The position numbers and the translations under genes were made by a program. Source: Polytrichum commune (Eukaryota > Streptophyta > Polytrichopsida > Polytrichales > Polytrichaceae). Taken from it: a DNA stretch of 64,000 nt. The stretch covers positions 29,450,001-29,514,000 of the forward strand of contig OX485803.1 of NCBI GenBank assembly GCA_950295325.1, read 5' to 3'. The notes beneath the pieces were generated by a model. It saw only the letters and a list, made by a program, of their open reading frames with translations, made no database searches and was not told where the DNA came from. Positions 17,865 to 62,797 of the stretch are shown in pieces (the first letter of the stretch is position 1; each line of letters begins with the position of its first letter).

Positions 17865-18101
17865 GGGTCCCTTCCCCTTCCTCCCCACTTTTTCGCAAGA
17901 GGAAAATTTGTTGAGAGAACGAGTGGTGAGGTTGGTTTTTTTTTTTTCTCGAGCCGCCAGCAGTTGGATTGCTGGGACTCCGCAATTTCCAGTTACCGGC
18001 AGTTGGCTTGCCGGGACTCCGTGGCAATTGAGCGGAAGAGGGGAAATCCGGAGGGGAGAGAATTTCCGTAGCTGTAACAAAGGTTGAGAGAAGAAAGGAA
18101 A

Positions 18102-41655: not shown

Positions 41656-43611
41656 ATAATGCAGTCATGTTACACATCACATAATTGCTTTCATGAACTT
41701 CTAATTGATGCATAAGTTTCATTGACTGAGGTCGTCATTGTCTGTGTTTAGGGCTGAAGTACCAGGAGAAGCAGGGAGAGCTACCATTTTAGCGCAGTAC
41801 GTCAATGGGAGCATGAGCGCAAGCTACATATAAATGTGGTTACAGGGGGCAAGGAGCTTCTTGTTGTAACAAGTCATTCCTTCACACGTTTTCCCTGCAT
41901 TTTTCCCCTCCATCCTCTTATGCTGTGGCGTTTTCATGCATTTGGCGTTTTGGTGCAGGTTCAGGCTTTCTCTGTGAATAATTTAGTTCTTTCTATGTCT
42001 TCCCGGCACTTCTCTCCGGAATCCTCTGATTTTGTGGCACCGCATAGGTTTAAGTCATTGATGTTGTTATGATCTACAGAGTGACGTGCACGTGGCTTTG
42101 TTATCTAACTACATGGTATGTATTGAATGGCTACTTGGAGGTAAGGCTGTGACATACTTGTTTTTTTTGTGGTCCACTTTGAAGAATCCCCATGCAACAG
42201 TCTTCTTCCACATTTTTGTTGCGATTTGCACTGTCATAGTATTAGGGATTTATATTTACAACAACCAAGTCGCATGATCTCATCATTTGAATCTTTGGTT
42301 GTATCCACTTTGGAGACATCTGTGATTCCGTTACTGAACTTTCTGTAACATGTTGTCATGAATGAAGTTTGTCTACAGCTGCTGCTCGCCTAAGAACTGT
42401 CCCGCCTGTGGTCGTCATCCATAGTGAATCCGGAGGTCTAATTGACCTCGTCCAGGTACATTCTCACACGCATATGGACATTGTGAAAAGAAATTTACCC
42501 AAACTTGTATAATGCAGAGTTATTGTGTATTTAAACCAATATAGAATTCTATTTTCTTTGACGTAGTTTATGTATCAATTTTTTAAAGGATGTTACATTA
42601 GGGAAATGTTAGGGTCTTCCAAGGATCATTCGTCTTTTGTAGTGTGTTGTTTCTAAGGACACCACATATTAGTTCAAATGTGAATGGATGTTTGTCAATA
42701 ACGTATGTAACCCTGCTAATTCTACTTGATAAATCTACCTGCTAAATCAGTACATGGTATGTATTGAACAGCAAATCTGAGGGACGTTGACTGGGAGGGT
42801 GCTAAAAAAGGTAGTTACAACGGCCAAGAAGCGTGCGATCTTGTAACATGTGAGACCTTCACACGTTTTCCCTGCGTTTTTCTCCTCCCTCCTTCATGCA
42901 TAGATGCTCCATTTTCCTCCTCCCTGCTCTTCTTCTTTTCCTGTGCATATGGCATGTAGGTTGCATGTTTAGGCTTTAGGGGTGTATTTTGTACTTCATT
43001 ATATCACTTCCCTCAATTTCTTTCCGACATCCGACTTCTGTAGCAGCATACACTTCTGTGCGGGCCCCTCATTTTCGGGAGCAGGCGCCACTTCTTTCCC
43101 ACCCATTCTGTCTTTCTACCAACCCCCGCTTGTTTCCGCCTACCCTCCTCGCGTTCTGTGCCAGCGGGCACTTTTGTGGCGAATCTTCTTCTTTTGTGGC
43201 ATCCGGCACTTCTTGCCGGATCCTCTTTGTTCGCAACATCCAACACTTCTACCCACAAGCCTCATATTGTGTGCCACCTGGCACTTGTTTCCTTTCCCGA
43301 GCTGCTCCTCTGCCATCGCATATCACGTTCGGAATGCATTTAGGGCATAGTTTTGTTTAGGGTCCATTTCTGTCTGACATCCTCAACTTCTTTCGCCGCG
43401 CATATGCCATTTAGGGTGTTTGCTTAGGGTTTCTCTGTGTGTTTAGGTACTTCTTTTCTTTGTATATTGTTGTAATTGTTTTTCTTGTGTGTTTAGGTAC
43501 GATTTTTTCTTGGGTGTTTAGGTTCCTCTTTTTCTTCAAGGCATTGCACATCTATGTCTATGGTATTCAGGGTTTAGTGTCCGCTGCACGCTGTCGCTCA
43601 CCTTGGTAGCC
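41656..43611. other. Upstream region of the 43.6-kb gene, no coding region supported
   Basis: The phrases TTCACACGTTTTCCCTGC and CATGGTATGTATTGAA each occur twice about 0.6-1.0 kb apart, indicating another local duplication. Pyrimidine-rich sequence and GTTTAGG repeats (TTAGGGT, GTGTTTAGGTAC) fill 42.9-43.6 kb, which probably holds the promoter and leader of the gene starting at 43612. Confidence 0.45.
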
Positions 43612-45177
43612 ATGGCCGTTGGCGAGGTGAAGCCCATGGGGGGCACCGCCTACCTGAGACCTCGCACGCTGCCAGACGCAGCCTCTGTATCACCCACTCA
43701 TTTCCCTCCATTCATGCTTGCGCCTGAAATGGCGTTGTTTCTGGCTATTGACCTGCATTGTTCTTTGCAGAAAATGAATTCTTATGCAGGAGCGCCCGAA
43801 GAAGACGAGGTTACATATTATGTGAACAGGGATTCGGTTGGTTGGGTGGAGCAGCGTGTGAGGAGGCGTGTCTACATCGAATTGAAACTAGAGTGCACTC
43901 GCAATCGATGTAGGGATAACCAGAAAGCCAGAGATGATTGGTTATGTGTGTATTGCAGGGCATCCTTTCCTAGCAAATTGCGTTTGACAGACCATCGCGT
44001 GGTAGGCTGCCCGTGTGGACCCGTGGACTCAACAGGGTGCAAGTGGGAGCTCCCTGTGTACCCGAATCTGAAGACGGCAAAACAAGGCAAGGACCTCAAA
44101 CTTGCCTTGCAGCGTGGCGATGGGTCTGTATGGGGCAGCTTGCACGACAACTCCATCTGGCTTGACCTTAATCCCGAACTAAGGGACGTCACCTACCCTC
44201 CCCCTGGAGCCAGAGTACAGATGCGACGATTCTTGGAGCCCACGGTGGAGAATTTGACTGCTTCAGCAGCCCATGCAGGAGATGTGCGGCCACAAGGTAA
44301 GCTTAAACCGGAACGCCCCCCCAAGCAACATCTTGCATCCACGGCACATGATTTCGTGATCATTGAAGATGATGACGACACTGAACCTGAGACGCCTCCT
44401 ACCCGGCCGAAAAAACGATCGCATGCGCATATGGCCGATGGTCACCGAGTGTATCATTCCAGCAGGCAATTCAAGTCTTCACCAAGGAAACATGCCCCTA
44501 TGCCACATCGGCAGCATGTTGAGGGTGAACGGCATTCACCGCACCCGCCAGGACGTGCGCGTCAGGCAACTGCGGATGGTCTCCACCGACGACCGCCTCC
44601 CCACCCTATCCATGTTATGCCTATCCAATCCCGCAGCCCCTCCCCACAGAGAATTGCCATTTTGCCTCCTCCTGCTCCTAGTCCTAGTCCTAGTCCCCCT
44701 CCTATGCCACATGTTACGCCGGTCTCCCCTATGCAGAGTTCCTCATGTTCACAAGATTTGGCTGCAGGGCTCCGGAAGGATAGACAGGCTTTCTATGTTA
44801 AAGTTGCAGCTGGCGCGCGTGCGTCCGTTAAAATGGACATCCCCAAGCCTGCTTTGAGGCCCCCAATTCAACCTCCAGGTTTGTGGTATTTGATGGCGTG
44901 TGGATTGTTAAAATTTGATTTGGAGTGCGGTGAGTTTCAGGCATTTCAAGACGAGGTTGAGAAGTGGCAGAACGACCCACACTTCACGGACAGATTGTAT
45001 GTAGCCTATGGGAGATTCTACGCTCCTTTGCATCAGGTACAACCTGCGCCTTCTCCCCTTGCATTCATGTCTGTCATATTTATGGGTTACAGAAATACAA
45101 TATGGCTAAATTTCTTGAAACAACGTCTGATATATTTATGCATGTTCAGAAAATGGGTTACAGTTCTAGGTCAAAAG
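43612..45177 (+). CDS. C2HC-type zinc-finger and proline-rich protein, 5' exons (gene interrupted by transposon)
   Basis: I do not recognise a named family. The start is the ATG at 43612 (AVGEVKPMGG). A long exon runs to 45036 (donor GTACAA after PLHQ, phase 0), and a likely second exon at 45093-45177 begins KYNMAKFLETTSDIFMHVQK. Residues about 95-125 contain CVYCRASFPSKLRLTDHRVV followed by GC, a C-x2-C-x12-H-x5-C finger. FVIIEDDDDTE near residue 250 looks like a SUMO-interacting motif. A His/Arg/Pro-rich low-complexity middle follows (PSPSPSPPP) and then a folded block (DEVEKWQNDPHFTDRLYVAY). The rest of the gene probably lies beyond the 17.3-kb transposon, at 62960 onward. It may itself be part of an older repeat family. 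Exon limits inside the N-terminal 60 residues are uncertain. Confidence 0.55.
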
Positions 45178-45503
45178 GTGAATGAGATTTTACATGAGCC
45201 TCCAGAAGTATGTTCTACAATTGGTAATCCACTCAGAATCTGTAAAGTTATGCTTCCAGGAACAACGATAATTTGTCCCTGAAATGGTTGATCATTATTG
45301 CAAGGTCCCGGCTTCGGTCCCTCCTTTAGGCGACCAATTTGCTTAAGATTCATTCTCATTTTATTTCTATGTAGGACATCCATATGAAGTGCACTAAACT
45401 ACTACACTGAAACACAGATGAGCCACATAAAATTGAGTTCCATTTCGTTTGGTGTTAATCTGCGTCAAGGTGTTACTTATTATAGGGATATTCCTAACAA
45501 GGG

Positions 45504-45513
45504 GCAGTTTCTG
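45504..45513. repeat. Left target-site duplication of the giant MULE
   Basis: GCAGTTTCTG, identical to 62788-62797. Ten bases falls within the 8-11 bp range known for Mutator-like elements. Confidence 0.9.
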
Positions 45514-46501
45514 GGGAAACTCAAGTATGTGAGCGGAGAGCGGAGATTGGAGAGCGGAAAATTTAGATTTTGTTGGGTAATTTTAGGAGAAGCAGTGCCT
45601 ATTTCCGTGGAATTAGAGATAGTTTGAATTCTATATTTGGAAAGGTACCCCCATTCCCGTGGACATAATAACCCATAATTGTTTGAGAAACCAACGGATC
45701 CTATAGGTGTGGAAGATTGCATTTGTTATCAAACATCTTATAGTATATGTTTTCAAATGTATCATATTAAATTAAGGCTGACGTCACCAAATTGAAATCA
45801 AAATACCATACACAAAATATTTTATTGGTTAACAAAATGTAGCCAACCTCAAGACTTACAAAAATGGGTAGTTAGTTAAAATAGCTATATATTCTAGTTT
45901 AGGGCCATCTACACCCTATCTGCCGGGCATGTCCAATATGGGTAAAATGATCCAAAGAACATGCCATAAAACTCCGTCGCACCATAACAGCCTTCCAATT
46001 CAGTCCTTAGCTTAGCCAAAAACCTTAAAGACAAATCCCCCAAGTCCAACCTTAGAATCCTCTTGGAAATTTTTGAGGTGACGTGCCGGCTCTTTGAGAA
46101 CAACATGAAGTTCAATTTAAAAAGTTTGACGAGGTTATGTTCGCGTGCCAAACAAAACTTCCAATTGCTATATAGCAATTGGGATTGGAAGACGGCCAAT
46201 GTGATTAGTGTGCACAACCATAAAATAAACCATCCACACTAATAGAAAGTATGGTTCCCCTATAACTAAGATCTCACACTAAGAGCCGAGAGCTAGATTG
46301 TTTTGTGACTAGAAGTTAAGAGATCCGAACGATGAAGAAAAAATAAAGAATGCAATGCGGATTGACATTATGAATATGAAATAATGGAGAGAAAGAATGA
46401 AACTTGCGCCGGATATCAAAAATAAAACCAACACACAACTTTTATTAAAGCCGGATAACAACAACAAACGGAGTTATAATCTCCAAAACCAAAATGATAA
46501 A

Positions 46502-49500
46502 CTAGGGGCTTGGAGAACATTCCCTATCACTCTCCTCACCCTCATTTGCTTCTAACAAGAAAAGATTTCGTGTCCCACGCGAGAAATGACGAACGCGAGG
46601 AGGAGATGGGGACTCCGCCTTCGCAAAACAATCCGCCATTGCACTAGCATACGGGGGAAGCTCAAGCGGCTTCGGAGGACTTGAAAACATGTCTCGACGA
46701 ATGACTGCGACCTCCGCTGGCTCTCTAAACACCCAAGCAAAAGGATTAGAAACATGATGACACTAGAAAATGAGAATTTGAAATCAAGGCAAACATGGCA
46801 AAATATAGAAAGCAAACTTACGCACAAAGGAATCCGAATGCCCTCTTGGTCATCTTTTGAGGAGGATAAAAGATAGATGTAGACGGTGCGGTAACTGAGC
46901 GAGATATACGTGCAGGCTGGGGATCGCGCATGGGGAGTAGGAGTGAATTGAAAATGACGGAGTCACTCTCAAGGGCCACAATATGCCGCTCAAGGGAGCG
47001 ACATGCTGTAATCGAACCACCTAAAGCAACGAGAGGTAAAATGTTAGTATGGAAACTAGTCAAGGAAAAATAATGGAAAATTCAAAGTAAGGATGAAGTT
47101 GAAAAACAAGACGTACCTACACCACACTGCTAGTCCATAATAACATCATTCTTGTCGGTGAAAGTAGCGAGAAGGATGGAAAAAAAAATAGGATGCTTCT
47201 CATGGGCACCTCGCCAAGGTACCCCATCACTGCGCATCGTCTGGCTGTTCTCATCGGTGAAGGTATTCAACCATCCATCTCGTTGGAGGTTGTAACCATA
47301 CTCTTGTATGGCCTCCTCCCGCACTCTAAGAACGGAGTTAACACGAACAAGAACTTTGATGCTGAACTTCCGAGTCTGCAACAATGAAAATGAAATTGAA
47401 TTGAAATGAAATGGAATTGAAATTGAATTGAAATTGAAATGATAAGCAATACGGAAGGGGAAGAGAGGGAGACTTGCTTACCACTCCAGAGGGAACAACG
47501 GGAGATTGGAGGTCCAAATCATTCATTCCAAACCAATCTTCCGCGACGTAGAAGTCATAAGTGTGTGCCCAATCGAAAATACTCCTAGAAACACTGGCAC
47601 TCGCACAATGGGCAAGAACAAGGACACCATGATCATAGAGGTTAGATTTCGCAAATGCAAAAATACACTCATAGTATGATTCATGGAGCTTGTTCCAAGC
47701 AGGAACATCGGTGGAGATGTTCGGCACCGGCAAATTCTCGGGAATGTCGGCGAAGAGCAAATCGAGGCCCTTGTGAGTTGTAGTCGAGGTGTTCACACGG
47801 GAACGACCTGCCCCAACCTGCAATTGAAACTTCATGAGAAAACAAGAAGGAAAGAAATAAGCAAAGCAAAGGAAAAAAAATTGAGAATTGACGAAGGCAA
47901 GTATACAAACCTTGGCAATGAACTCTTGGATGCGGGTATATGCGGGGAGGGGACCTCCGGCAACCTTGGAATCCAGCATTAGTTGAACCATGTCCACATT
48001 TTCGATGAGGGAAAGCGTGTTAGGGGCATCCGAAGAGGTGGCACTGGTATCCAAGAGAGCGGCCTTCATCTTGCGAGGCAAAGAGAGGAGAGAAGTGCCA
48101 CTATGAGATGGAGTGGCAAGAGATTGTGGATGAAATGCAGATGGAGTAACAGAGGGGGCAAGAGAGGGAGCAACGGAGGGAACGATAGATGGACTGTGTG
48201 GGAGGGTGGGTGGCTCAACCGGGGTCTTAGAAGTAGACCGAGTGAGAACTTGGGAAGATGTTTGAGTGGCGGTCTTCTTTGCTCTGCCCTTTCTCCTTGG
48301 TGCCTTAGAAGGAGGAGGGGGAAGCTCAACGATGTCAGGCTCCTCCAAGGTAACAATGTTATCATCCGGAGCACTACCCACAAGGCTAGCAAACAAAGCC
48401 TTCTCTTCCCCGGGGACAAATCCTGCAGTACAATCCAAGTACCATCCACCACCTTGCAAGTGCAATTCGGAGAACTTGTTTGTTTGCGCGGTCGTGTACA
48501 CGCAGAGGCTAGAAAAAATATTCACCCAGTCCGAGAGGTAGTCCGGCAAGGAAAATGAGGCCAATGCATTCTTCACAACTAATTCTCTCATGATATACCT
48601 ACATGACAAAACAAGAATGTAAGAAAACCAAGAAAACGAGCAAGAAATGAAATTAAGGAGAGGTGCAAAGTGGAGGATAGATGTATTACCGATAGGCCAC
48701 ACGCTTGATAGCGAGAGCCCCCTCCTCGAACTCCAAGAGATTATCACCTTTGGCAAAGGCGATGTCAAGCTTATCGCCGAGATAAGGCTTGAAGGCCTTG
48801 TCCCAAAGGACAATCCGCCAATGATCAACGTACTCACGAGGGCGCAAAATAGTTTCTGATGCGTCTCAATCAATGTCGACGGAGAGGCTCTCCTCTAAGG
48901 TCTTAATTTCAACCGCGACTTCTTTCTCCAACTGCAGAGAGGGAGATGATTAGATATGAGATAAATGGAATAGAGGAAAATGAAAATGAAGAAGGCCGAG
49001 GAGTGGATTTACCTGAGCCCAGAAGGACGCCTTGTGTAGCCAGTCGTCCAAAGCCCTCTCCCTCATAGGCTTGTCGACGGGGAACTTGTTATCTAACCTT
49101 TCACGAAGGGGGGCGTTCCACCAGTAAAGCCACTTAGCTTTGAACGAAGCTTCGACCGGGCATGTGACAATTTTTTGCAATTTTTCAATTGTCATGTCCG
49201 TCGAAGAGAACTCATTAAAATGGCGGTCAATCTGTGCACAAAATAAAAATGATTTGAGTTCAAAAGAGTAATAGAGTTGAAGAGTGATTTGGATGAATTG
49301 CGTTTAAGAGTGATTTGAGTTCAAAAGAGTACCTCATGAAAGAAATCCTCTCCATTGTCAGGGTGTGCAACGGATATGTATTTCTCAAAAGAACGGGCCC
49401 GAATACTTTTGATTGTCCTCTCCTGGGCCTTGGTCATAACATTCCAAATCTCAGTGGCCGACCTCTCCGCAACGGGTGTGGTCTCACGGTAATGCCTAAC

Positions 49501-50702
49501 TGCAAGGTCTGCTTGAGCCGAAATGTCTCTATGCAAGAAATGATCTTGTGAGTTCATATAATCGGCATGGAAATTATCTATGTTGGAAGCTCTAAATGAT
49601 TGAATGCACAAAACCATACCTTGTAAAGAAACTTAACGAACACATCCGCGGTCAAGATGTACCAAGTTGGACGACTCTCCTTTATCTTCTCGCATGCTTT
49701 GTAGCCAGATGGCGATATGAGATCCTTGAAGGTGGACAACTCTAACCTTCCAAAAGTGCGGATTCGAAGGAGCTTGGCCGGAATGTTTGCCTTGACATAA
49801 TCATGCTCGGTTGACCTGAGAGAAAATATGTGAGGAACGTGAGGTGAAAATAATGGAAAAGAATTGAAACAAAAATGAAAAATGAATGAAAAAAATGAGT
49901 GAGCTTACCAATTAATGTCGCTCATGACATTGAGAAATACACCGGTGTATCCTCTAAGGTCAACAACAATGCAATCCACCGAGATATGCCAACTCTTGTC
50001 ATCGGCGTGGTGGTTATTAATGTGTCTCCACCAAGCGGTGAGACGATGATTGCCTTCCCAGACGAAGAACATCTTCCCGGCGAAATGTGCAAGATCCGGA
50101 TCCTCCTTGAGCTTGGCGTCAAATTCTGCGGAGGCCTCTTGCCAGAGAGGGCTCCAAGAGGCCATAATGCCAGGGGGAATGGGGAGGTCCACGGGAACGT
50201 CGTTGAAAGCAGACACTTAAAGAACCCGATCACCCTCTCGGTATCCCATTACAAATTCACATTCCAAGCGCTGCACCTCAACCTCACTTATAAGACGGAC
50301 GAGAGGGAGGGCTCTCAAGCGGCACAAAGGAATGGATAAGCGGGACTTACAGGTTGGCTTAATCCGGAGGCGTTGGATAACACCAATGGAGTCCTCCTTT
50401 TGTGATTTCCGAAGCTCAAGCTCACACACCACGGGATCCGTGTCGGCAACTGCTTGAACGGCATCTTCGCTCATTGCGAGAGCCTAACAAAAACACAAAT
50501 AGTAAAACCATGCTTAGAAAGCTAGAACTCAAAAAACTTGCTCAACAAATTATTCAACAACTATCCAACTCACCTCTACTTGTAATGGGCCCTGCGAATT
50601 GAGACTCTCAACCTGCACAGCTTCAACTTCAACCGCGGGGGCCGCAAGAACAACATCCTCTCCAGATTGGGGTTGCGATTGCGCAACCTGTGAAGAGTCC
50701 AT
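46502..50702 (-). pseudogene. ParB-like / beta-class DNA methyltransferase-like gene, 11 exons, disabled
   Basis: Exons (descending): 50702-50574, 50483-49909, 49815-49620, 49499-49333, 49231-49013, 48931-48690, 48598-47911, 47817-47482, 47375-47117, 47020-46822, 46724-46502; AATAAA at 46446. Nearly all GT-AG junctions keep phase; only exon 3 to 4 does not. Exon 2 carries FFVWEGNHRLTAWWRHIN, like the ParB/Srx GxHR box, then ISVDCIVVD and FLNVMSDIN. Exon 7 holds a Ser/Pro/Thr-rich linker. Exon 8 has GLDLLFADIPENLPV, DHGVLVLAHC and FYVAEDWFGMNDL, matching motif IV (DPPY/W changed to DIPE) and the following strands. Exon 9 has HEKHPIFFSILLATF (family TEKP) and DKNDVIMD; exon 10 continues GGSITACRSLERHIVALESD (motif I). 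The order IV-X-I is the beta class. Stops: TAA 50217-50219, TGA 48866-48868, TAG 47130-47132. The ParB assignment is tentative; the methyltransferase fold is firmer. Confidence 0.72.
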
Positions 50703-51559
50703 ATCCTAAGAACATGGAGAAAATGAGAATTTCACAAAGAAAAGTCAATAACTTCGTAACTATAAAGAAACAAATCCTCACAAAAACAATACAAGGCCGA
50801 GAGCAAACTACAAATGGAAATGGCCGAATGCTAAGTCAAGTGGTAAACTCTAGCACTAACCTACCTACGAATGAGAGGCCTCGGATCCGAGGCCTCTTTT
50901 CCTACCTCCTCCTTATGCACTACCCAAAAGAAAAAAACCAAGAGAAATCTTATGTGAACATAGCAGTTTGACTTTTAAAGCCCATACATTGTCTCCAAAA
51001 TGAGGCCTCGGATCCGAGGCCTCTTCACAAACCTCTTACTCATGTAATACCCAAAACAAGAAGGCCGAGAGCAATCTTACACGAACATAACATTTTAATT
51101 TTTCTAGCATAAAATTCACACAAACATGAGGCCTCGGATCCGAGGCCTCTTCCAAAACACATACTTATTCACTACCCAAAACAAGAAGGCCGAGAGCATT
51201 CGAAAATGAACATAAGATTTTCATTTTTCAAGCACATACCTTGACACAAAAATGAGGCCTCGGATCCGAGGCCTCTTCACAAAATACCTACTTATGCACT
51301 ACCCAAAACAATAGGGCCAAGCGCATTAAAAAATGAGCATAACATTTTAACTTTTCATGCACATACCTTGACACAAAAATGAGGCCTCGGATCCGAGGAC
51401 TCTTCCGAATGCCCCTCCTTATGAAATACATACTACAGAAAATGGCCGAGAGAATTCAAAAATGAACCTAACATTTTCATTTTTCAAGCACACAACCTGA
51501 CTAAAAAATGAGGCCTCGGATCCGAGGCCTCTTCCAAATGCCCCTCCTTGATGATTTTA

Positions 51560-52012
51560 AAACCTAACCAATTTACTTGTTACATGGCTCACGGGTGTTC
51601 ACCCGTGATGTTCACATTTGATGATGTTCCAGGGGAGGTCACTCCATTGCCAAGTTGCATCACCAAAATGGGTCAAAATTTTTTCAAATGTTTTTGGAAG
51701 GTAGATATACATGATATCTATTACGGAGTAAAATATCATGACCAAATTTGATGATCATATTTTTCTAGAAAACATACCATTTCTACCTAGAATGACGCAG
51801 AATTCAACTAAAACAATTACTAGGAAAAATGAAGATGACAAAAAATTTCAAAAAAATAACCAAAAGATATAATCAATGGTTATGAATATAGAGAAAAACA
51901 AATCATAATTTTTAAAAATATTTGACATGGAGACATCTCCCCGTGATGATGCTAAATCCTACCCAAGTTACCTGTTACATGGCCCACGGGTGTTCACCCG
52001 TGGGGCACACAT
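51560..52012. repeat. Recurrent hairpin unit CACGGGTG/CACCCGTG within the array
   Basis: CACGGGTGTTCACCCGTG, preceded by TTACTTGTTACATGG, occurs near 51587 and 51986. A variant CACGGGCGTTCACCCGTG occurs near 55202. It forms an 8-bp stem with a TT loop and marks places where the regular palindrome spacing breaks. Confidence 0.8.
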
Positions 52013-52237
52013 TTGATCATGTTAAAACCTAACTTTTCATGCACATACCTTGACACAAAAATGAGGCCTCGGATCCGAGGCCTCTTCCGAGTGCCCCTCC
52101 TTATGAAATACATACTACAGAAAATGGCCGAGAGAATTCAAAAATGAACCTAACATTTTCATTTTTCAAGCACAAACCTTGACACAAAAAAAAGGCCTCG
52201 GATCCGAGGCCTCTTCCCAAAGCTCCTACTTATGCAC

Positions 52238-52950
52238 TTAACAAAATACAATCCCCCCCCCGCAGCTTCAGACCTCCATATCTTCCACGTGTGGTCTCCG
52301 AATCTCACAATCAACCACTCTATCGTCATCTACGTGAAATGTAGATGCCGATGGACACCTCACTTGCCCCATTTGGGCAAAAATCAAGGAAGTTATGCCT
52401 GTTTAAACATTCGCAGTCCCGGGAACCACTCCCAGGGGACTGCTGATCGAGGGCACTAAAAGGAGGCCTCGGATCCGAGGCCTCATTTTGAAACTAGTGT
52501 ACATACTCAAAAACAAGCAAAGTGCCTCATTCATACAAGCTATACGTTGAATCAAAAAACCTCAAGTGGCCTCGGCTGAGAGGCCTCCGATCCGAGGGCT
52601 CACACACAAAGTAATTTACGTACTCCAAACCAACCATAGTGCCTCATCCGTACACTAGTTTTGGAACACATAAAAGAGGCCTCGGATCCGAGGCCTCTTC
52701 TCCTAGCTCCTACATATGCACTTAACAAAACACATTTCCCCCCCCCCGGCAGCTTCAGACCTCCATATCTTCCACGTGTTGTCTCCGAATCTAACAATCA
52801 ACCACTCTATCGTCATCTACGTGAAATGTAGATGCCGATGGACACCTCACTTGCTCCATTTGGGCAAAATTCAAGGAAGTTATGCCTGTTTAAACATTCG
52901 CAGTCCCGGGAGCCACTCCCTGGGGACTGCTGATCGAGGGCACTAAAAGG
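52238..52950. repeat. Two near-identical 220-bp segments, 484 bp apart, inside the array
   Basis: Segments starting near 52250 and 52737 begin with a C run and share GCAGCTTCAGACCTCCATAT, TCCACGTGT, ATCAACCACTCTATCGTCAT and GCAGTCCCGGGA. Both end at a palindrome (52463 and 52950). They are a higher-order unit of the array, not a gene. Confidence 0.9.
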
Positions 52951-53102
52951 AGGCCTCGGATCCGAGGCCTCATTTGCAAACTAGTTTACATACTCAAAAA
53001 CAAGCAAAGTGCCTCATTCATACAAGCTATACATTGAATCAAAAAACCTCAAGTGGCCTCGGCTGAGAGGCCTCGGATCCGAGGCCTCATTTTGAAACTA
53101 GT

Positions 53103-54321
53103 CACTACAAGGAAATGTGTGTATAATTGACAAAAATGTGACACTAAAATGTCCGAAGTGACAAAATCAGCTCAAAGCTATGAGTTTTTGTCAATTCGGA
53201 CATTATTCAAAATTTGTGTCAATTTTCTGTCATCAAATTTATATATTTCACGTTTAACTTATTCCCTTCACCTGAGCATGTGTCTCATATTTATTAACAA
53301 CAAAAGGTGTTACAAAAGGTTTTTAATTATTGTAATTACTAGTATAAGTAATTAATATAAATAATGTATTTACTATAATTAATGTAATAACTAATTTAAT
53401 TAATTAATGTAATAACTAATTTAATTAATTAATGTAAATACTGAAATTACCAATTTAAGTAAATACTGAAATTACCCTTTTGAGTAATACTGAAATTACC
53501 AATTTAAGTAAATACTGAAATTACCAATTTAACTACTGAAATTTGTTAATTTAAGTAAATATTGAAATTTTCTAATTTAGGTAAATACTGAAATTTGCTA
53601 ATTTAAGTAAATACTGAAATTTTCTATTTTCAGTAAAATACTGAAATTATTGTAATTAATGTAGTTAAAATAATTACAATAATTACTGTAATAATGTTTA
53701 GGAGTATTTTTGTAAATTGTTTTTAATACAAATACAATACGTACTAATTAAAAACAGTAAATACATTAATTCTATGCTTGTTTTTACTTTCACTAATTAA
53801 AATATATATATACATAAGTTTATAAGTCTTATGGCTTCTTCATACAAAATTCTTACATACTTGGCCTATATCATGTAATGAGCGGTGGCTTAGTGGCTAA
53901 GGCCTTTACACTATAGCCAAGAGGTTCAAGGTTTGATCCCCTTGACCCCTCACCCTTGGCTTTGCCTAGGGTAGGTAGGTGGCTTTGTCCATTAGCCTAG
54001 GTTAGGTGAGGTGGCCCTTCGCCCTTAGACCTATGTGAGTAGGCCCCGAATGCGAGGGTGGATTACTAATTTAGGATTTTTTTACTAGTATAACTTGGAC
54101 ATTAAATCACATCACCATGGGTAAATGACGAGGTAAAGAGAATCCAACATGGCAAGGGGGCCGGAGTAAATGGAATCCTACGTGTATAATTGTCCCAGAT
54201 GACAAAGAAGTTGACAGAACTCTGTTAATTGTATGACCGAATCAAGATGCCCTATATGACACCCAAATTAACAGAATTTCGTCACATTTTTGTCAAATAG
54301 GTCATATAAACTCTTGTAGTG
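53103..54321. mobile_element. CACTA-type non-autonomous element inside the palindrome array
   Basis: The ends are CACTACAAG (left) and CTTGTAGTG (right). Inverted TTGACAAAAATGTGAC blocks lie just inside both. AGT is duplicated at 53100-53102 and 54322-54324. CACTAC ends and a 3-bp duplication define the superfamily. Inside, 53440-53650 is a simple repeat built on ATACTGAAATTACC and AATTTAAGTAA, and 53880-54060 holds a SINE-like segment. There is no transposase. It is 1,219 bp. The palindromic array continues on both sides. Confidence 0.93.
53879..54060 (+). mobile_element. tRNA-derived SINE-like segment
   Basis: An A box TGGCTTAGTGG (53886-53896) and a B-box-like GGTTCAAGGTTTGATCC (53923-53939) lie about 37 bases apart, as in RNA polymerase III internal promoters. 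Related to the minus-strand fragment near 40.4 kb by the TGGCTTNGTGG start. It lies inside the CACTA-type element; its 3' end is not defined. Confidence 0.6.
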
Positions 54322-56657
54322 AGTGTACATACTCAAAAACAAGCAAAGTGCCTCATTCATACAAGCTATACGTTGAATCAAAAAACCTCAAGTGGCCTCG
54401 GCCGAGAGGCCTCGGATCCGAGGCCTTACACACAAACTAGTTTACATACTCAAAACCAACCAAAGTGCCTCTTCCGTACACTTGTTTTGGAACACATAAA
54501 AGAGGCCTCGGATCCGAGGCCTCATTCACAAACTAGTTTACATACTCAAAACAAACCAAAGTGCCTCATCCGTACACATGTTTTGGAACACATAAAAGAG
54601 GCCTCGGATCCGAGGCCTCATTCACAAACTAGTTTACATACTCAAAACAAACCAAAGTGCCTCTTCCGTACACTTGTTTTGGAACACATAAAAGAGGCCT
54701 CGGATCCGAGGCCTCATTCATAAACTAGTTTACATACTCAAAACCAAGCAAAGTGCCTCTTCCGTACACTTGTTTTGGAACACATAAAAGAGGCCTCGGA
54801 TCCGAGGCCTCATTCACAAACTAGTTTACATACTCAAAACAAACCAAAGTGCCTCATCCGTACACATGTTTTGGAACACATAAAAGAGGCCTCGGATCTG
54901 AGGCCTCATTCACAAACTAGTTTACATACTCAAAACAAACCAAAGTGCCTCTTCCGTACACTTGTTTTGGAACACATAAAAGAGGCCTCGGATCCGAGGC
55001 CTCATTCACAAACTAGTTTACATCCTCAAAAACAAGCAAAGTGCCTCATTCATACAAGTTATACTTTGAATAAAAAAACCTCAAGTGGCCTCGGCCGAGA
55101 GGCCTCGGATCCGAGGCCTCACACACAAACTAGTTTACATACTCAGAACCAACCAAAGTGCCTCATAAAGACATGCCTAACCAAGTTACTTGTTACATGG
55201 CCCACGGGCGTTCACCCGTGGGGCACAAGGCAGAGAGCAAGGAATCAAAATTGGAAGAAAGTTGACATTCCATTAGTTTGAGAAATCAAGAACCTCACCT
55301 CTCTCAAAACCCTACCTCTCACATACTCAAACTTACACAAATATGAGGCCTCGGATCCGAGGCCTCTTCTCCTAGCTCTTTCTTATGCACTACACAAAAC
55401 GAGACAAGGCCGAGAGCAATCGATGTGGACATAACATTTTGATTTTTCAAGCACAAACCTACCCACAAATAAGAGGCCTCGGATCCGAGGCCTCTTCCTA
55501 TGGCTCCCACTTATGCACTACACAATAGAAGAAATGGCCGAGAGCAAGAAATCAATAAAGCAAGAAAGTTGACATTCCATTAGTTTGAGAAATCAAGAAC
55601 CTCGCCTCTCTCAAAACCCTACCTCTCACATACTCAAACTTACACAAATAAGAGGCCTCGGATCCGAGGCCTCTTCCCCGAGCTCCTTCTTATGCACTAC
55701 ACAAAACGAGACAAGGCCGAGAGCAATCGATGTGGACATAACATTTTGATTTTTCAAGCACAAACCTACCCACAAATAAGAGGCCTCGGATCCGAGGCCT
55801 CTTCCTATGGCTCCCACTTATGCACTACACAATAGAAGAAATGGCCGAGAGCAAGAAATCAAGAAAGCAAGAAAGTCGACATTCCATTAGTTTGAGAAAT
55901 CAAGAACCTCGCCTCTCTCAAAACCCTACCTTTCACATACTCAAACTTACACAAATATGAGGCCTCGGATCCGAGGCCTCTTCCCCTAGCTCGTTCTTGT
56001 GCACTACACAAAACGAGACAAGGCCGAGAGCAATTGATGTGCACATAACATTTTGATTTTTCAAGCACAAACCTACCCACAAATAAAAGGCCTCGGATCC
56101 GAGGCCTCTTCCTATGGCTCCCACTTATGCACTACACAATAGAAGAAACGGCCGAGAGCAAGGCATCAAGAAAGCAAGAAAGTTGACATTCCATTAGGTT
56201 GAGAAATCAAGAACCTCGCCTCTCTCAAAACCCTACCTTTCACATACTCAAACTTACACAAATATGAGGCCTCGGATCCGAGGCCTCTTCCTATGGCTCC
56301 CACTTATGCACTACACAATAGAAGAAATGGCCGAGAGCAAGGAATCAAGAAAGCAAGAAAGTCGACATTCCATTAGTTTGAGAAATCAAGAACCTCGCCT
56401 CTCTCAAAACCCTACCTTTCACATACTCAAACTTACACAAATATGAGGCCTCGGATCCGAGGCCTCTTCCCCTAGCTCATTCTTGTGCACTACACAAAAT
56501 GAGACAAGGCCGAGAGCAACATGATGTGCACATAACCTTTTGATTTTTCAAGCACAAACATACCTTTCCTGACATGTTCCTAAACCCAAATCAGGACAAG
56601 GCCGAAAGCAAGTCAAGCTGATATTCCAAATACTATGAGAAATCAAGGTGATAGGAA

Positions 56658-57657
56658 TTAAGCAAAAACGTTGGCGAACATAGCTTGGCCGAGATCCCGA
56701 CACCTTGCCAGAATTTGGAGTATGCCCTCCACTGAAGCCCCTATATTGGCGCCACTATCTTCCGAGGTCCCGTCCTCTGTCGGCGTTATTGGAGTGCTTC
56801 TCGAATCTCCGAGGTTTACTTGCGCCATTCCTCTCCCGCGGCCACGCCCTCGCCTTGATGTTTGTTGTGTTCCGCCCGCCTTGCTTCGCTGAAATCTTGA
56901 AGCAGGGGTCACAACATCCACACTTAGGGTTTCTGCGCATGGGTCTCCTCCTTCAGCTCTTTCGTGGCCTCCCAACAAATTTGATTTCAGATCTTCCTTT
57001 GCCGCTTTCCTCTTGGACGCCTTCATTTTGTCTCTTGCTTGAATCGTTGGTTGTCCCGACATCGGTTCTCGCTCTTCTAACGCCTTCTCAATTTGTTGTG
57101 CTACCTCCTTGTTGTCTTCTTCGTAGATATTTCCACTATCTCCACTTCCCCCTTCTTCCTATATTTAAGATAAAACAATGTTTATAACAATGATGGCAAA
57201 CCATAATATCTAAAAGAAAAGTTGTTTCACAGTTGAATATGTTCTACCATTTTTATTATGTGCTCAAACAACTGAATATATGGAGAACCCGAAGAATACG
57301 TACGACACTTGTAGAGTTTGTCTCTTCGCGTGAGTCCTCTTGGATGCTGTCGTTTCCCAACTCCTCCACTTCTGCCATTGGTTGCGCTTTACTTCCGTCC
57401 GCCTCTTCTACAATCGGTGATAAATGAAAAGGCCGAATCCCACAGTCTAGCCTCCACGAAGGTTTCCGCAGGTCCTTTATGCTTTGGCTCAAATCCTCGG
57501 GCGTCCCACGGCCCTCGATTGGCGCTTTCCTTGCCTTTGACTTTTGTGTCCTCACTGTCTTTCTCTTCTTATCAATGTAATGTGTAGACGATCGCCTCCT
57601 CTTCTTTTTCTTAGATGGTTCCGTTGTCGGAGGTTGTGAATTGCCTATTTCCTTCAT
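56658..57657 (-). CDS. MULE accessory gene A, basic nuclear-type protein, two exons
   Basis: Exon 1 is 57657-57304 (donor GTACGT) and exon 2 is 57158-56658 (acceptor AAATATAG). The phase-0 join gives 284 residues with no stop. I do not recognise the family. Residues 17-45 are strongly basic (KKKKRRR, KKRKTVRTQKSKARK), a likely nuclear localisation signal. The middle is acidic. Exon 2 begins EEGGSGDSGNIYEEDN, then KMKASKRKAAKEDLK, then RRGRGRGRG, and ends with an Ile/Leu helix GILQILARCRDLGQAMFANV. It is transcribed away from the transposase gene, the two starts lying 320 bases apart, so they probably share a promoter region. It is the only cargo frame here without a stop. A structural or DNA-binding helper of transposition is one guess. 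Confidence 0.6.
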
Positions 57658-57976
57658 GTGTTCAACCCTCCCGCAATTCAGACCTATTCGCTCTATTTCC
57701 TTTCCACAACCTCACCACATCAAACTCACACATTGGAAAGAAAGTGAGCAATCGCATTCTTCTCAGTATATAATTGCAATACCTCCCGATGGGAGGCGCG
57801 CTTTACTATCTAACAACCATCTTTGTAATTAGGGGTATCTTTTTTTAGGATGCCTGACAGTTTTGTCTCCTTCCTGATATTCATGCGTATTTGTTTATAA
57901 CTTCATCATCATCACCATTCTCCTTCTCTATGCATCTTTGCATCTTTGTTCCTTCACGTTTGCTTTCTCTGCCTTC

Positions 57977-60900
57977 ATGGCTTCCACCTCAATTCTTCCT
58001 CCCGTCTCTGAGATGGCCGAACTTCGTTCACATGGCATCGGGGTCCCTATTATATTCCCCATTGGTGCACAAGGTATTGTTGTTGTCTCGGAGCTTCATC
58101 TTAGCATTAGGTTCTCTTTGAAAGCTAGTACAATATGGGTAGAGCGTGAGATCTACCATCCTGATACTGGATTGCTCGTTCATACCTTCCATGAGACCTC
58201 CAAGGTAACTGACAATGGCAATGTAGTGTGGGAGCTTGGCGCGGGAAAGTATAGGGTTTGTGGCTGGCCAGATTCTCAGATGGGAGTGTCAACAGAAATC
58301 CTTCCTCCTCTTCGATCATCCACTGTTGCCTTTAGCATACCCCCGGTAATAAGCGTCAAGACCGAGCCTGGTGTAGACAACGTTATAGACTTGTCTGATT
58401 CTTCGAGTGAAGATGTACCAGTGCATAAGGCTGCTGTCCATGATTCCCCTCATTTGTTTCCCTTTGCATCCTACGTAACGCCTTCTCCATCTAGCTCTGT
58501 CCCTTCAACTACTTCGGTCCCTACATCTAAACCTCCTCAAACTATTGTTCAATGTCTTCGTCGTCTTGGCTCTATGCCCGGTAGTAAGAACGTCCTCAAG
58601 AAAATAGATTACGATAAAATCAAAATCCAAGAAGTTAATCACCTTCCCCCTCGTTTCGATGGCACCCAGTTATTTGTCCTCCCTGCAGCAAAAGTCTCTT
58701 CATCTCAAACCAGGGCCAAGTCGTTGGACGGCATGGACAAGCAATATGATGGCCATGTTTGGACTAAGACTCAAACCACCAACATTACAAACGACGTTGG
58801 CCTTGCATTTCGTTCCTCTACCTGTGTTGGCCATCTCCAATGCCAAAACCCGAGTTGTGATTACCTTCAACGCGCCCATCGTACCTCTAAGGTCAATGAC
58901 ACAGAATTTGAAGGTTTCACTAAAGATCCTTTCCCTCTCTCTGGCATTGTGCCATCCGGATCTACTCTTGTCTGCAGGATTTGTAAAGAGCCTCCCAAAT
59001 GCATTGCACTATGCGAGGCCAAAATCTTCTACGTCCATGGGAAGGAGTCATCCCAAAGAGCCTGCATTCATCTCGGTTCTCATCAACATCCAGTGAAGGT
59101 TGGAGACTGCAGAGATAGTCGGAAGCGTATCAATGCACTTCTTGAGGAGCACGTTGAACGTACGCCTCAAGCCACCCACAGCAAGATCGTCCTTGAAGCT
59201 AGCAAGGACATTGTTGGTGAGTTTCTCCTTTCTGGCGATAATGACACACACCGTCTCTTCTCTTTAAAAGAGCTTGAACCTGTTTTTGAGAGCTGTAGAG
59301 AGTTGAATTCCCCAAACCTTCGCTCGAAGGTTACCTCTTTCAAATATTTGCGGAGGTTTGGTGTTATGGATGGCATCGCGAAGCTCCGAGGCGTTAGCAA
59401 TTGGGCCTACGTCCAACGGAACCAATTCCCAGGACAAGGTGACGATACAGACAAGGTGTTCGTCTTCAAGATGTCGGAGGTTGGTCCTGGAAGTGGAGTG
59501 GATTTGGTTCGTCGGATGCAACCGGGTGGGGACCTGGAGAACGCGTGGATGATGTCCGATCACGTGAAGCGGGTCAAAGGGTGGACCACCATGGCCGCTC
59601 ATGTGTACGATGGGACTTATCAACGGGTCATGACCATTTCATGTTGTGATTTCCAATCGGAGGATAAGGATGCCCAAGTTCTCTTCTGGCAGAACCTCAA
59701 CCACGTCATGGCCCGACACGGTATCCCACATCCAAACTTTATAGGCTTCATGGCGGACAGTGCCCAAGCCAATTGGAACGATGTTCGCATTGTGTATGGT
59801 TCAGGGGATCCCAAAGTTCCAATGGAGGGTCGTGAGCGCACTTGTTTTTTCCATTGGAAACAATCGCTCGAAAAACATACGAAATCGTATATAAAGCATG
59901 AGTTACAAGACCAACATAGACATCTTTGCCTTCAATATCGAAATGCGTCATCTATGGAAGAGGCTGAGACTAGGTACCTAGCTATCAAGGCTTGGTGGGC
60001 GTCATCGAATTGTACAAGTGAGGACGGTCTCAAGCATCTTCAGCTCTGGCTTGCTTTTTGGCACTTCCGCTACCTTCAATGGGGTGGTTTCATGGAACTG
60101 GTACATCTCCTTTATAATTCATTATTGGTTTTTCTTGGATTCGATTTCCTCTCTCTGTACATTTATATTAATACTTGATTTCTCCAATCAGGAAAAGGTT
60201 TTAACCCAAGACCAATTGGCCGAGATGCCGTCGTGCAATCTTGCGGAGTCCGTCCACAACAAGTGGCTTCAAGCCTCCGGCAACAAGGGTGGAGATCTAT
60301 ACGTGGCTACGGTTGACGACTACATTCGCGCCTTCTTACAAGTTGTTGCATACTACTAGTTCCTTAAAGGTGGAATTGGCGGAGATGGTCCAAGCAAAGA
60401 AGAACTAAAGCTCAGGGGTGCTCAACGTCGAGCTCAGCGTACTGGCGACCCCACAGTGTTGCAGAAGGTCTTGCTTGACATGTCCGGTGGGGAAGAATTT
60501 TGCACTCGCGATCCACACCTTGAGGGCGCCGAGGTGTTTGGATCGCAGAAGCGAAGACCAGACACTCCAATTGGTGATGATGGCGAGACCCACCGCCCCG
60601 ATACCGTGAACTTCTCTCGCCCTCCCCCCGATAAGCGTGTCACTCGATCTCAACCAGAAATACTACCCACTATCATTGAGGAGTCTTCCCCCTCTGTACA
60701 AGAAGTTCAAGTGCCTTCACCTGCAGGACTTGGTTTCCAGCGTGTCACTGTCGTGCAAGAAACCAAAGTAGATGTCTCTCTTTGGCATATTGCCCGCATA
60801 CCCTATACGTCTGGGAAGTCTTGTTGGGCTAATCATGCGGGCACGAAGAAGAAGTGCACCGCAAGAATCGTCACTAATAATAAGAGCGTCCCTGCGCTGA

Positions 60901-61649
60901 CCTACACCGGTATGTGGCATCATTACAAACTCCAATCTATGAAGCGCATGGACTTTGTCTTTTGCCCAGACAACATTGAGCGTTGCGTGAAGGGCCCTCA
61001 TCAGAAATGGGTCATGCAGTTCTCTGCTGATGACCAGAAGCCTCCTATTCCCCCAATCTGGCCCGTGAAGATTGGTACCAACCTCACCCACTCGGAGATC
61101 TTCGCCCTTGAGAACGCAGGTTTTCAACTCCCACCAAAGGAGCGCATCACACCGACTCAACTCTTCACCAACTCTGCTCCCCCGCTGGATATGTCTGGAA
61201 TCCGTATTCCAGAAAACCCCGACATGATCCCTCCGACAAGATTGTCCAAGCTTGTTCGGCGATCCAGCAGCGCACCTTCGGCAAAGCAGAGGCAAATGGT
61301 GGCCTCTGCTGAAGCTATGCATGGTACCGTTCTGAAGTTAACTATGATCCCTCAACCGGGATTTGGTTGCATTATCACACTGCAGTCCAAATCAGAACCC
61401 CAACCACCGATCTACCAAGTGACAGCCAGTTCTCTTCCAGAGTGCAACTGCGCATACTTCTTGGATATGATTTCCAAGTTCAGCCGCAAACGAAATTCTT
61501 ATCTGAATTGTAAGCATTTGTATTACATTTTCATCAAGGTTTCTAATTTGGATGCGGAAGTGAATTTGTTCATTCACGCCCCGACATTTAGCTTCAACGA
61601 AGTCAAACTCATCCTCGAAGGGGGTCTTTTGACAAAGTCTACTTCTTAG
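57977..61649 (+). pseudogene. Mutator-like transposase with SWIM zinc finger, one in-frame stop
   Basis: Exon 1 is 57977-60100 and exon 2 is 60192-61649 (GTACAT/AATCAG, phase 0), 1193 codons with a single TAG at 60357-60359 (YY*FLKGG; one C-to-T step from CAG). The start is the ATG of MASTSILPP; an ATG 39 bases upstream in frame is also possible. VKTEP and VIDLSDSSSED near residues 130-145 resemble a SUMO attachment site and a SUMO-interacting motif. A Cys cluster, CVGHLQCQNPSC, starts at residue 283. The DDE region has YDGTYQRVMTISCCD (Asp 545), GFMADSAQANW (Asp 594) and RERTCFFHWKQSLEKHTKSY. The C-terminal SWIM finger CNC...CKH (C-x-C-x19-C-x-H) starts at about residue 1126. DDE plus SWIM is the known MULE layout, and it agrees with the 10-bp target duplication. 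Confidence 0.88.
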
Positions 61650-61733
61650 GATTTATCTCAGCCTAGCAATACTTTGGGCTATGATATATGTATCCATTTC
61701 TGGACCTCTTGTGAAGCAATAATTGATTGATAT

Positions 61734-61739
61734 AATAAA
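61734..61739 (+). terminator. Candidate poly(A) signal of the MULE transposase gene
   Basis: AATAAA, 85 bases after the stop codon in an AT-rich stretch, just before the convergent accessory gene B ends. Confidence 0.5.
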
Positions 61740-61770
61740 GGTATAATCTCAATGATTATTTTTATTTGCT

Positions 61771-62319
61771 TCAAAATTTTGTATTACAATGCTTCCTATG
61801 TCTATCAACTTTATTCCGTTTTGCATACTTCTTAGATGATTGCGAGGGAGGTGGACCCGGTCGAAACAAATCCATATAAGAAACTGTCTTATCTCTCTTT
61901 CGATCCTTCAGCGGAAGATGATGCGGCGTCATTCCTCTCATCCGTTCGCGAAATGAAAGAGACTTCGAAGATTCCCCTTCCACCTTCACCTCCTCCTCCA
62001 TTTCGTTTTATTTGTCTTCATCCAAATCAGCATCCTTCTCCGGTACATCTTCCTGCCTTTTTTCTTTTTTCTCATATTTTTTTGGCTCCTCCCGCACCCT
62101 CCACCTCCATGCTTGTGTAGACTGCGAAAATGGAGTCAGCTCGTAGTCATCACTACTTCGATTTCCAGCAGCAAACTCAAATTCCGGCGATGGATTAACC
62201 GGAATATGAGGATCTGCTAGACTTCTAATTTCCTTATCCCATCCTAATCCAGCAAACATGTCTTTCTCATCTCCCATTGTGTGCAACTGTATATACAATG
62301 ATGTTGGGTATGAGTCCAA
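61771..62319 (-). pseudogene. MULE accessory gene B, charged protein with one in-frame stop
   Basis: A single minus-strand frame of 183 codons from the ATG at 62319 to 61771 is broken only by a TAA at 62008-62010. It reads DLDEDK*NEMEEEVK, one C-to-T step from CAA. I do not recognise the family. The N-terminal half has MFAGLGWDKEIRSL and PSPEFEFAAGNRSSDDYEL. The centre is very acidic and basic by turns (KKYEKKEKRQEDVPEKD). The C-terminus is basic (KKYAKRNKVDRHRKHC). It lies between the transposase gene, convergent with it, and the right inverted end. A second ATG follows two codons after the stop, so a shorter product is possible. Confidence 0.5.
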
Positions 62320-62787
62320 TTTATAATCTATTCGGCCACAAACGATAATTGCTAAAGTCTAAGCTATAGAATAGACTCACATATAAGACAAAGAGAAAAG
62401 TGATGAATAAAAACCAAGCAAGTTTATTATTTTGATTCCTTTGTATTTTGATTGACTCATTCTTCAATTATACCAATCTCAAAAAATCCATTTTCATTGA
62501 TTTTTTCTTGTAGTCATCCTTGGTTTTAATAATTCAACCACCTCACGGTTTCCAAACTTAATGAGACCATTTCAAATTCAGGATTTTTATTTTATTTTAT
62601 GACCTATACATCCCACGGAAATAGGTCCAATTTTTTTACTATTATTGTCAGATTCTGGAATATTCTTGGAATATTCTTGGCTATTTTGAAATATCCTAAT
62701 TTTAATCTGACAAGTTTACTATTTTTATTTCCTCTACGCTCTCCGCTGTCCAAATCTCCGCTCTACGCTCACATACAAGTGTCGTCC

Positions 62788-62797
62788 GCAGTTTCTG
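62788..62797. repeat. Right target-site duplication of the giant MULE
   Basis: GCAGTTTCTG, identical to 45504-45513. Confidence 0.9.

Follow-up and report, generated by a model that had tools for sequence, protein, structure and literature searches.

The window analyzed here, 64,000 nucleotides of the genome of the land plant Polytrichum commune (NCBI GenBank assembly GCA_950295325.1, contig OX485803.1, positions 29,450,001 to 29,514,000 of the forward strand), contains a transposon resembling Mutator-like elements (MULEs). Two divergent genes, an accessory gene on the minus strand and a transposase-like gene on the plus strand, flank tandem arrays of a palindrome. The accessory gene is real, and the element is very numerous in the genome. 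By profile comparison, the C-terminal third of the accessory protein descends from a prokaryotic-type β-class amino-methyltransferase, and this domain is under purifying selection despite an acid in place of the catalytic aromatic residue. We tentatively propose, at slightly below an even chance, that the protein is a VANC-like accessory protein of a land-plant MULE-like transposon and binds the arrays.

The structure of the accessory gene, obtained by spliced alignment to the gene model of another copy (C4), is as follows; motif assignments rest on sequence and profile comparison, and dN/dS is the ratio of nonsynonymous to synonymous substitution.

46502 to 50702, minus strand: accessory gene, 11 exons, about 1087 codons, broken in the window copy
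50574 to 50702, minus strand: exon 1
49909 to 50483, minus strand: exon 2, ParB-like box domain (IPLCRLRALPLVR...YVS...MFFVWEGNHRLTAWW...CIVVD), dN/dS 0.06–0.15 between subfamilies
49333 to 49815, minus strand: exons 3 and 4 and their intervening intron, middle region of uncharacterised nature
48690 to 49231, minus strand: exons 5 and 6 and their intervening intron, middle region of uncharacterised nature
47911 to 48598, minus strand: exon 7, Pro- and Ser-rich linker; mosaic breakpoints of other copies lie near its start (codons 520–580)
47482 to 47817, minus strand: exon 8, methyltransferase motif IV region (DLLFADIPEN)
47117 to 47375, minus strand: exon 9, PWRGAHEKHP and start of motif I (VIMD)
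46822 to 47020, minus strand: exon 10, end of motif I onward (GGSITACR...RHIVALESD)
46502 to 46724, minus strand: exon 11, fast-evolving C-terminus

The exon numbering and coordinates of the initial annotation agree with this model: exon 2 carries FFVWEGNHRLTAWW...ISVDCIVVD, and exons 8–10 (47817 to 46822) carry DLLFADIPEN, GAHEKHP, and VIMD*QCGVGGSITACR...ALESD where they had been placed. Four lesions disrupt the window copy: in-frame stops in exons 2, 6, and 9 and loss of the splice acceptor before exon 4. Among 18 aligned stretches, those of L020 and the C3 copy are unbroken from first to last codon. Another 13 are interrupted by one or more stops or frameshifts, some of which the alignment may have created, and three are covered in part only. 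Exon 2 alone gave 150 scored matches in the 408-Mb genome from 1074 first-look candidates, counts that are lower bounds; most of the matches listed have no stop within the match.

Descent of the methyltransferase domain and its altered motif IV

The methyltransferase proposed in the initial annotation was borne out by searches with three profiles: A1, with six rows of close relatives only; A3, with ten rows from several families, some of them imperfect; and A7, with seven clean rows of diverged relatives from several families. A1 matched two PDB entries, both DpnA (E = 0.027 and 0.028), and one of its six members matched the Pfam family N6_N4_Mtase (PF01555) at E = 0.12. An hmmsearch of the PDB with A3 found 16 sequences, with DpnA at E = 3.3e-12 and CcrM at 1.9e-7, followed by N4-cytosine and MboII enzymes (0.006–0.05), further DNA methyltransferases with E up to 0.82, and, at 0.88–1.6, six arginine methyltransferases. 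The same search with A7 found 28 sequences: DpnA matched over the whole domain (E = 3.6e-10), CcrM at 2.5e-5, and N4-cytosine enzymes at 0.0035 and 0.012, the rest (E ≥ 0.5) being mostly arginine methyltransferases aligned in the vicinity of motif I only. Alignment of A7 with three prokaryotic or phage ParB-associated enzymes by hhalign gave a probability of 89.9% (E = 1.7e-6), versus 0.6% and 0.3% for mismatched pairs; for A3 and four enzymes, the probability was 96.5%, versus 0.3% and 1.7%. Six PHROG families were matched by five or six of the ten A3 members, four of them named DNA methyltransferase and two methyltransferase.

A genome search with PF01555 yielded 118 places at E ≤ 10. Three strong ones lie on small contigs (C10 and C12) that are bacterial contamination in appearance, two dispersed ones on large contigs exceed the cut-off, and the remaining 113 are below it and mostly short. 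The two on large contigs (L023 and L024) belong to a diverged family, F23, with a third copy at L029, which is homologous to the window gene over exons 4–10 (tblastn E = 8e-21 for L023 and 2e-22 for L024). L023 matches PF01555 at E = 1.1e-7 and 32.4 bits (cut-off 26.7) over positions 1–216 of 221; in the same scan, the family proteins from L034, L037, and L039 did not match this Pfam family.

The domain has motifs IV, X, and I in the order that defines the β class. Because the order motif IV, EK(H)P, motif I is retained in families 25–37% identical to the window family, it is not a chance arrangement. The S-adenosylmethionine-binding consensus of motif I is FxGxG; its last Gly is present in all ten A3 rows, and the position of the first is occupied by G, A, S, or T. 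The domain resembles DpnA, CcrM, and MboIIA in its whole-domain profile match, its motif order, and an EK(x)P-like stretch before motif I, and differs from them in a DxP(E/D) motif IV, a split over three exons in the window family, and its place in a eukaryotic mobile element. The ancient acquisition initially suggested is plausible from the divergence of the families, but its prokaryotic source did not emerge: in profile scans of genome contigs, none of the 38 (A3) and 19 (A6) pattern matches was confirmed as a prokaryotic relative, although these scans were pattern-limited and do not imply absence. A tblastn search of phages with the methyltransferase returned 72 records, of which those listed cover only about the last 40% (best listed E = 8e-4).

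The motif IV consensus of β-class enzymes is (D/N/S)PP(Y/F/W). Motif IV is DPPY in the phage and contaminant enzymes compared; the accessory proteins depart from the consensus. The initial annotation had raised the question of whether other copies keep DPPY or DPPW. Motif IV was read at 47 sites, and at 44 of them, across several families about 25–37% alike, Glu or Asp occupies the position of the catalytic aromatic; the sites are copies of perhaps eight families and not 47 independent events. The exceptions at this last residue are Y in L023, A in L077, and Q in L079. The window family and its subfamilies contribute 16 sites (DIPE, DVPE, or DMPE), F23 nine (eight DIPD and one DIPY), L025–L028 five, L034, L036, L038, and L043 four (one DISE), and L035, L037, L039, and L040 one each. 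Nine more come from 20 fetched pieces, five of which lacked a match to the pattern used (acid first, Pro third, last position free) and were left unread. The count leaves out L014, L016, and L019, where the site is not covered, and L041 and L042, where it was not read. Survival of an intact motif IV in F23 was considered and rejected: L023 has DIPY, yet the eight other copies read have DIPD. The suggestion that the window copy may be dead is correct in view of its stops and lost acceptor, but DIPE is not the cause, because an acid is found in nearly all members read.

Selection was estimated with the Nei–Gojobori method between subfamilies, using finite synonymous distances only, as saturated pairs give no ratio. 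The dN/dS ratio was 0.06–0.15 in the box domain, 0.065–0.12 in exons 3–6, and 0.10–0.21 in the methyltransferase domain (0.16–0.21 where the synonymous distance is below 1; the lowest value comes from a distance of 3.1), against 0.28–0.48 in the linker and 0.30–0.90 at the C-terminus. Near-identical pairs (window–C3 and C3–L007) gave ratios of 0.18–1.87, which stem from a small number of changes and from decay in the window copy. Because the catalytic aromatic residue has become an acid almost throughout, yet the domain is under purifying selection, it has probably lost the standard methylation of exocyclic amines.

These ratios largely refute the idea that the gene is a captured passenger, decaying and without a role for the element. 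The broken window copy and the 13 interrupted stretches would suit such a gene, but most listed exon 2 matches are free of stops and the same two-part architecture, a box domain followed by a methyltransferase, recurs in F23 and in two further diverged families, F36 and F37. We regard the passenger explanation as highly improbable.

Motif IV also bears on the possibility that the protein is an active self-modification enzyme, which would bind the arrays and methylate its own element, producing N6-methyladenine or N4-methylcytosine. Active amino-methyltransferases are among the homologues of the domain, the aligned rows retain Asp and Pro in motif IV and the final Gly in motif I, and PMC12477816 proposes such a role for a similar 1104-residue protein of a brown alga. 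We nevertheless consider it unlikely, given the Glu or Asp at nearly all sites read. In the bdelloid enzyme N4CMT, according to PMC8885841, N4-methylcytosine (4mC) activity is lost when SPPY is changed to APPA. This enzyme and the Marchantia 4mC methyltransferase are, like the present domain, bacterial-type amino-methyltransferases gained by a eukaryote; as far as the sources go, neither is described as transposon-encoded, and N4CMT, unlike the accessory proteins, has an intact and required SPPY.

The small contigs C10 and C12, with strong N6_N4_Mtase matches, also have ParB_N matches, as does C23, and are probably bacterial or phage contamination of the assembly. One of them, apparently bacterial, contains a 722-residue ParB–methyltransferase open reading frame (L032, G000:C10:13000-15500) with an intein-like insertion between the methyltransferase motifs that, by eye, begins with C and ends with HNC.

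The box domain, the palindrome arrays, and mosaic copies

Exon 2 has the order IPLCRL..LPLVRP, YVS, MFFVWEGNHRLTAWW, which we take to be the order of the ParB N-domain. The box reads GNHR in six of the seven A6 rows and GNHP in the other; by eye, L019 has GNLR and L021 CNYR. The box stretch also lies upstream of the methyltransferase in F23, F36, and F37; by profile, the box domain was not found in the fetched pieces L025, L026, L027, L046 with L039, L047 with L034, L041, L042, and L035, which need not contain it.

The ParB relationship initially proposed draws on the GNHR box and the strand order, as read by eye, and no profile test supported it. Searches of Pfam (including ParB_N), NCBIfam, and PDB profiles gave no ParB match, and the PHROGs gave a single "ParB-like partition" match (E = 0.28), which covers the GNHR box in one of the families. 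In hhalign comparisons with eight prokaryotic or phage ParB domains, made after removing an insertion of 44 columns that precedes the box, the score of the real alignment was reached by 142 of 200 column shuffles locally and by 181 of 200 globally; with only eight reference sequences, the shuffle result is weak evidence against the relationship too. Leaving the insertion in gave no support either. Other weak matches in the box region were to PHROG 20480 (unknown function; E = 0.0031) and PHROG 6476 (0.16) for F23, PHROG 38631 (0.087) for F37, a glycine/sarcosine methyltransferase model (0.01, one of seven members), and MFAP1 (0.13–0.17). In phage tblastn searches with the box domain, no listed match was better than E = 3 and 0.5. 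An AlphaFold model of window exon 2 alone had a mean predicted local distance difference test score of 37.7 and was not used further. The system shares with ParB/parS a box of the GNHR type and a series of palindromes, and differs from it in the lack of profile similarity and in the insertion before the box.

Upstream of the F23 gene, beside its ParB-like exon, kinase-like fragments were observed (L030:2600-3761, plus strand), which may belong to a further gene of that element. They match PF00069 below the cut-off (E = 0.21) and, by eye, contain HCDLSFTNIIF and IGDWG.

The DNA between the two window genes is occupied by repeats:

50875 to 56466, no strand: tandem arrays with periods of 127, 96, 307, and 179 bp, containing 29 copies of the palindrome GAGGCCTCGGATCCGAGGCCTC

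These 29 occurrences allow up to three mismatches, and shuffles give an expectation of 0. The exact word occurs 1903 times in the genome and a reversed control word 0 times; among the places listed, three clusters (C1 at 2.25, 12.94, and 13.97 Mb) lie near listed exon 2 copies, and one single site does not. For six other copies, 4–5.2 kb upstream of each accessory gene was read, and the array word is the same in two, related in three, and different in one. A diverged copy (L049) has a 39-copy, 128-bp array with the core CTCGGATCCGAG 33 times in an otherwise different repeat unit, and L062 has CTCGGATCCGAG eight times. CTCGGAACCGAG occurs 10 times in L061 and 16 times in L063, and CTCGATTCCGAG 11 times in L060. 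L048, the DNA upstream of L018, has CGAGTGACACTCG five times in a 34-bp repeat, and CGAGTGTCACTCG and CTCGGATCCGAG once each. No repeated palindrome was found in the F23, F36, and F37 pieces read (L030, L044, and L045), those of F36 and F37 lying partly inside the gene.

The arrays might instead serve the host or the transposase, in replication, recombination, or RNA-directed silencing of tandem repeats, and be unrelated to the accessory protein. Tandem repeats arise unaided, the L018 array has a different word, and words do not simply follow the N-terminal half of the protein. On the other hand, for five of the six other accessory genes read, the upstream DNA contains repeats of the half-site CTCG...CGAG in units that otherwise differ, and we doubt this explanation.

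Four copies (L013, L014, L019, and L022) are mosaics of two subfamilies. Their third-position identity to C3 is 32–47% up to codon 520 and 50–95% after it; identity to L015, for L013, L014, and L022, is 41–70% before codon 580 and 26–53% after. Over codons 85–520, the mosaic N-terminal halves are nearest to L018 (66–70%), then to L015–L017 (58–62%), with C3 far (40–41%), and over codons 580–740 the copies are nearest to C3 (56–72% versus 29–41%). The idea that the array word tracks the N-terminal half was rejected: over this half, L013 shares 69% and L022 66% third-position identity with L018, versus 59% each with L015, but their array words do not show the same affinity.

Proposed role of the accessory protein

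In the VANC-like reading, the N-terminal half with the ParB-like box may recognise the element's own palindromes, CTCGG-WW-CCGAG and relatives, arrayed before the gene; we infer this from the box and the position of the arrays. The methyltransferase domain would then serve as a cofactor-, base-, or DNA-binding module, and many protein molecules on the arrays would shield both promoters, those of the accessory gene and the transposase gene, from host silencing, as VANC proteins do for VANDAL elements. Alternatively, the array-bound protein would build a complex needed for transposition.

Several points weigh against this reading. ParB membership failed every profile test, the arrays of L060 and L062 consist mostly of palindrome-free repeats, and the conserved acid could mark an altered but active enzyme. 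Moreover, L022 has the array word of L015, L013 a related, third word, and L018 a different one. Because the upstream words do not match the kinship of the N-terminal halves, we make no claim that the word follows the N-terminal half, and for the same reason our confidence in the reading fell from an even chance to slightly less.

A neighboring possibility is that the protein is a transposition helper like MudrB or MutB, holding element DNA or transposase during integration, with the arrays as binding sites of that complex. MULE second genes with integration or DNA-binding roles are known (mudrB and mutB; PMC6446971), and the present gene is retained in diverged families and antisense to the transposase in the window; yet the arrays are central and not at the ends, a position that fits promoters better than end synapsis, and we consider this role unlikely. 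A more speculative variant, which we rate as distinctly improbable, is a centromere- or parS-like system turned to defence, in which the ParB-like protein would load at the arrays, spread, and exclude silencing, and the acid-remade methyltransferase pocket would read, not write, a flipped or host-methylated base.

For Arabidopsis VANDAL elements, PMC5735166 shows that VANC21 binds YAGTATTAY, arrayed as tandem repeats; VANC proteins in general recognise short motifs amplified in this way and cause hypomethylation. VANC, like the protein proposed here, is a MULE-encoded second protein whose families have different motifs; unlike those of VANC, the motifs here are palindromic. No Pfam match to DUF1985 or DUF287 was found in the stretches scanned, with exons 1, 5–7, and 11 of the window family outside the scan. 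PMC6446971 lists MULE second genes, with no word beginning "methyl" in its main text.

ParB–methyltransferase accessory proteins have already been reported from algal transposons. As described in PMC12477816, the 21.5-kb Sola1-1_Ec32 of Ectocarpus encodes a 1104-residue protein with ParB-like and N4/N6 methyltransferase parts, antisense to the transposase; the paper cites similar proteins in green and red algal transposons (Iyer et al. 2011; Petroll et al. 2025). Compared by description only, the two proteins are alike in being two-part, about 1100 residues long (about 1087 codons here), and antisense to the transposase of a large DNA transposon; the layout and the methyltransferase agree with the algal description, and a ParB relationship did not show in the profile tests here. 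The system described here differs in its land-plant, MULE-like setting, the acid for the catalytic aromatic residue, the palindrome arrays, and the mosaic halves, and these features are new within the literature searched. No further work on such proteins in eukaryotic transposons was recognised among the papers listed in that search, subscription papers being mostly outside its reach.

The algal two-part accessory proteins have a land-plant counterpart with many copies in several families, and conservation of the methyltransferase domain in such proteins is compatible with a catalytic motif that departs from the standard. The element itself displays candidate target sites, which makes the function of such proteins testable. 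Together, the gene and the arrays suggest a role in marking or protecting the element's own DNA.

Element ends, transposase-like gene, and neighboring frames

The limits of the element were set by comparison with two other copies.

45514 to 62787, no strand: MULE-like element, 17,274 bp, with short terminal inverted repeats (GGGAAACTCAAGTATGTGAGCG... / GGACGACACTTGTATGTGAGCG...)
45504 to 45513, no strand: target-site duplication, left copy (GCAGTTTCTG), 10 bases, repeated directly after the right end of the element
62788 to 62797, no strand: target-site duplication, right copy (GCAGTTTCTG)
57878 to 61649, plus strand: transposase-like gene, open reading frames 57878 to 60178 and 60360 to 61649, with a C-terminal CxC...CxH (SWIM-like, by eye)

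Both ends share GTATGTGAGCG in their terminal inverted repeats. A 10-bp target duplication is present in two of the three copies, the window copy and C3 (its own, CGGATGGATG), with none at C4. A target duplication of 8–11 bp together with terminal inverted repeats is the Mutator-like pattern, and the label "MULE-like" was given because of the duplication length and motifs read by eye in the transposase-like protein, namely CxC...CxH, which we take to be SWIM-like, and D...D...C..H. A Pfam scan of the gene found no MULE or other transposase match, only FERM_M (E = 0.008) and zf-MYND (E = 0.096) below the cut-off. Two stretches of the gene align with an open, transposase-like frame of 1241 residues in L028, at 50% and 44% identity. 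In L028 (363–4085 and 4961–6691, plus strand), this frame stands directly upstream of a methyltransferase gene and in the same orientation, whereas the window layout is divergent.

The plant setting assumed in the initial annotation agrees with LEAFY SAM-domain matches at four places in the genome and in none of 14 control genomes; LEAFY is a marker of the streptophyte line.

Two other regions of the window contain open frames. Adjoining the left end of the element, 43522 to 45282 (plus strand) holds a 586-codon frame with a zinc-finger-like stretch, CVYCRASFPSKLRLTDH, and no Pfam match. A GC-rich region at 18078 to 20048 (plus strand) holds two frames of 328 and 281 codons, the first without a Pfam match, that are retroelement-like in appearance.

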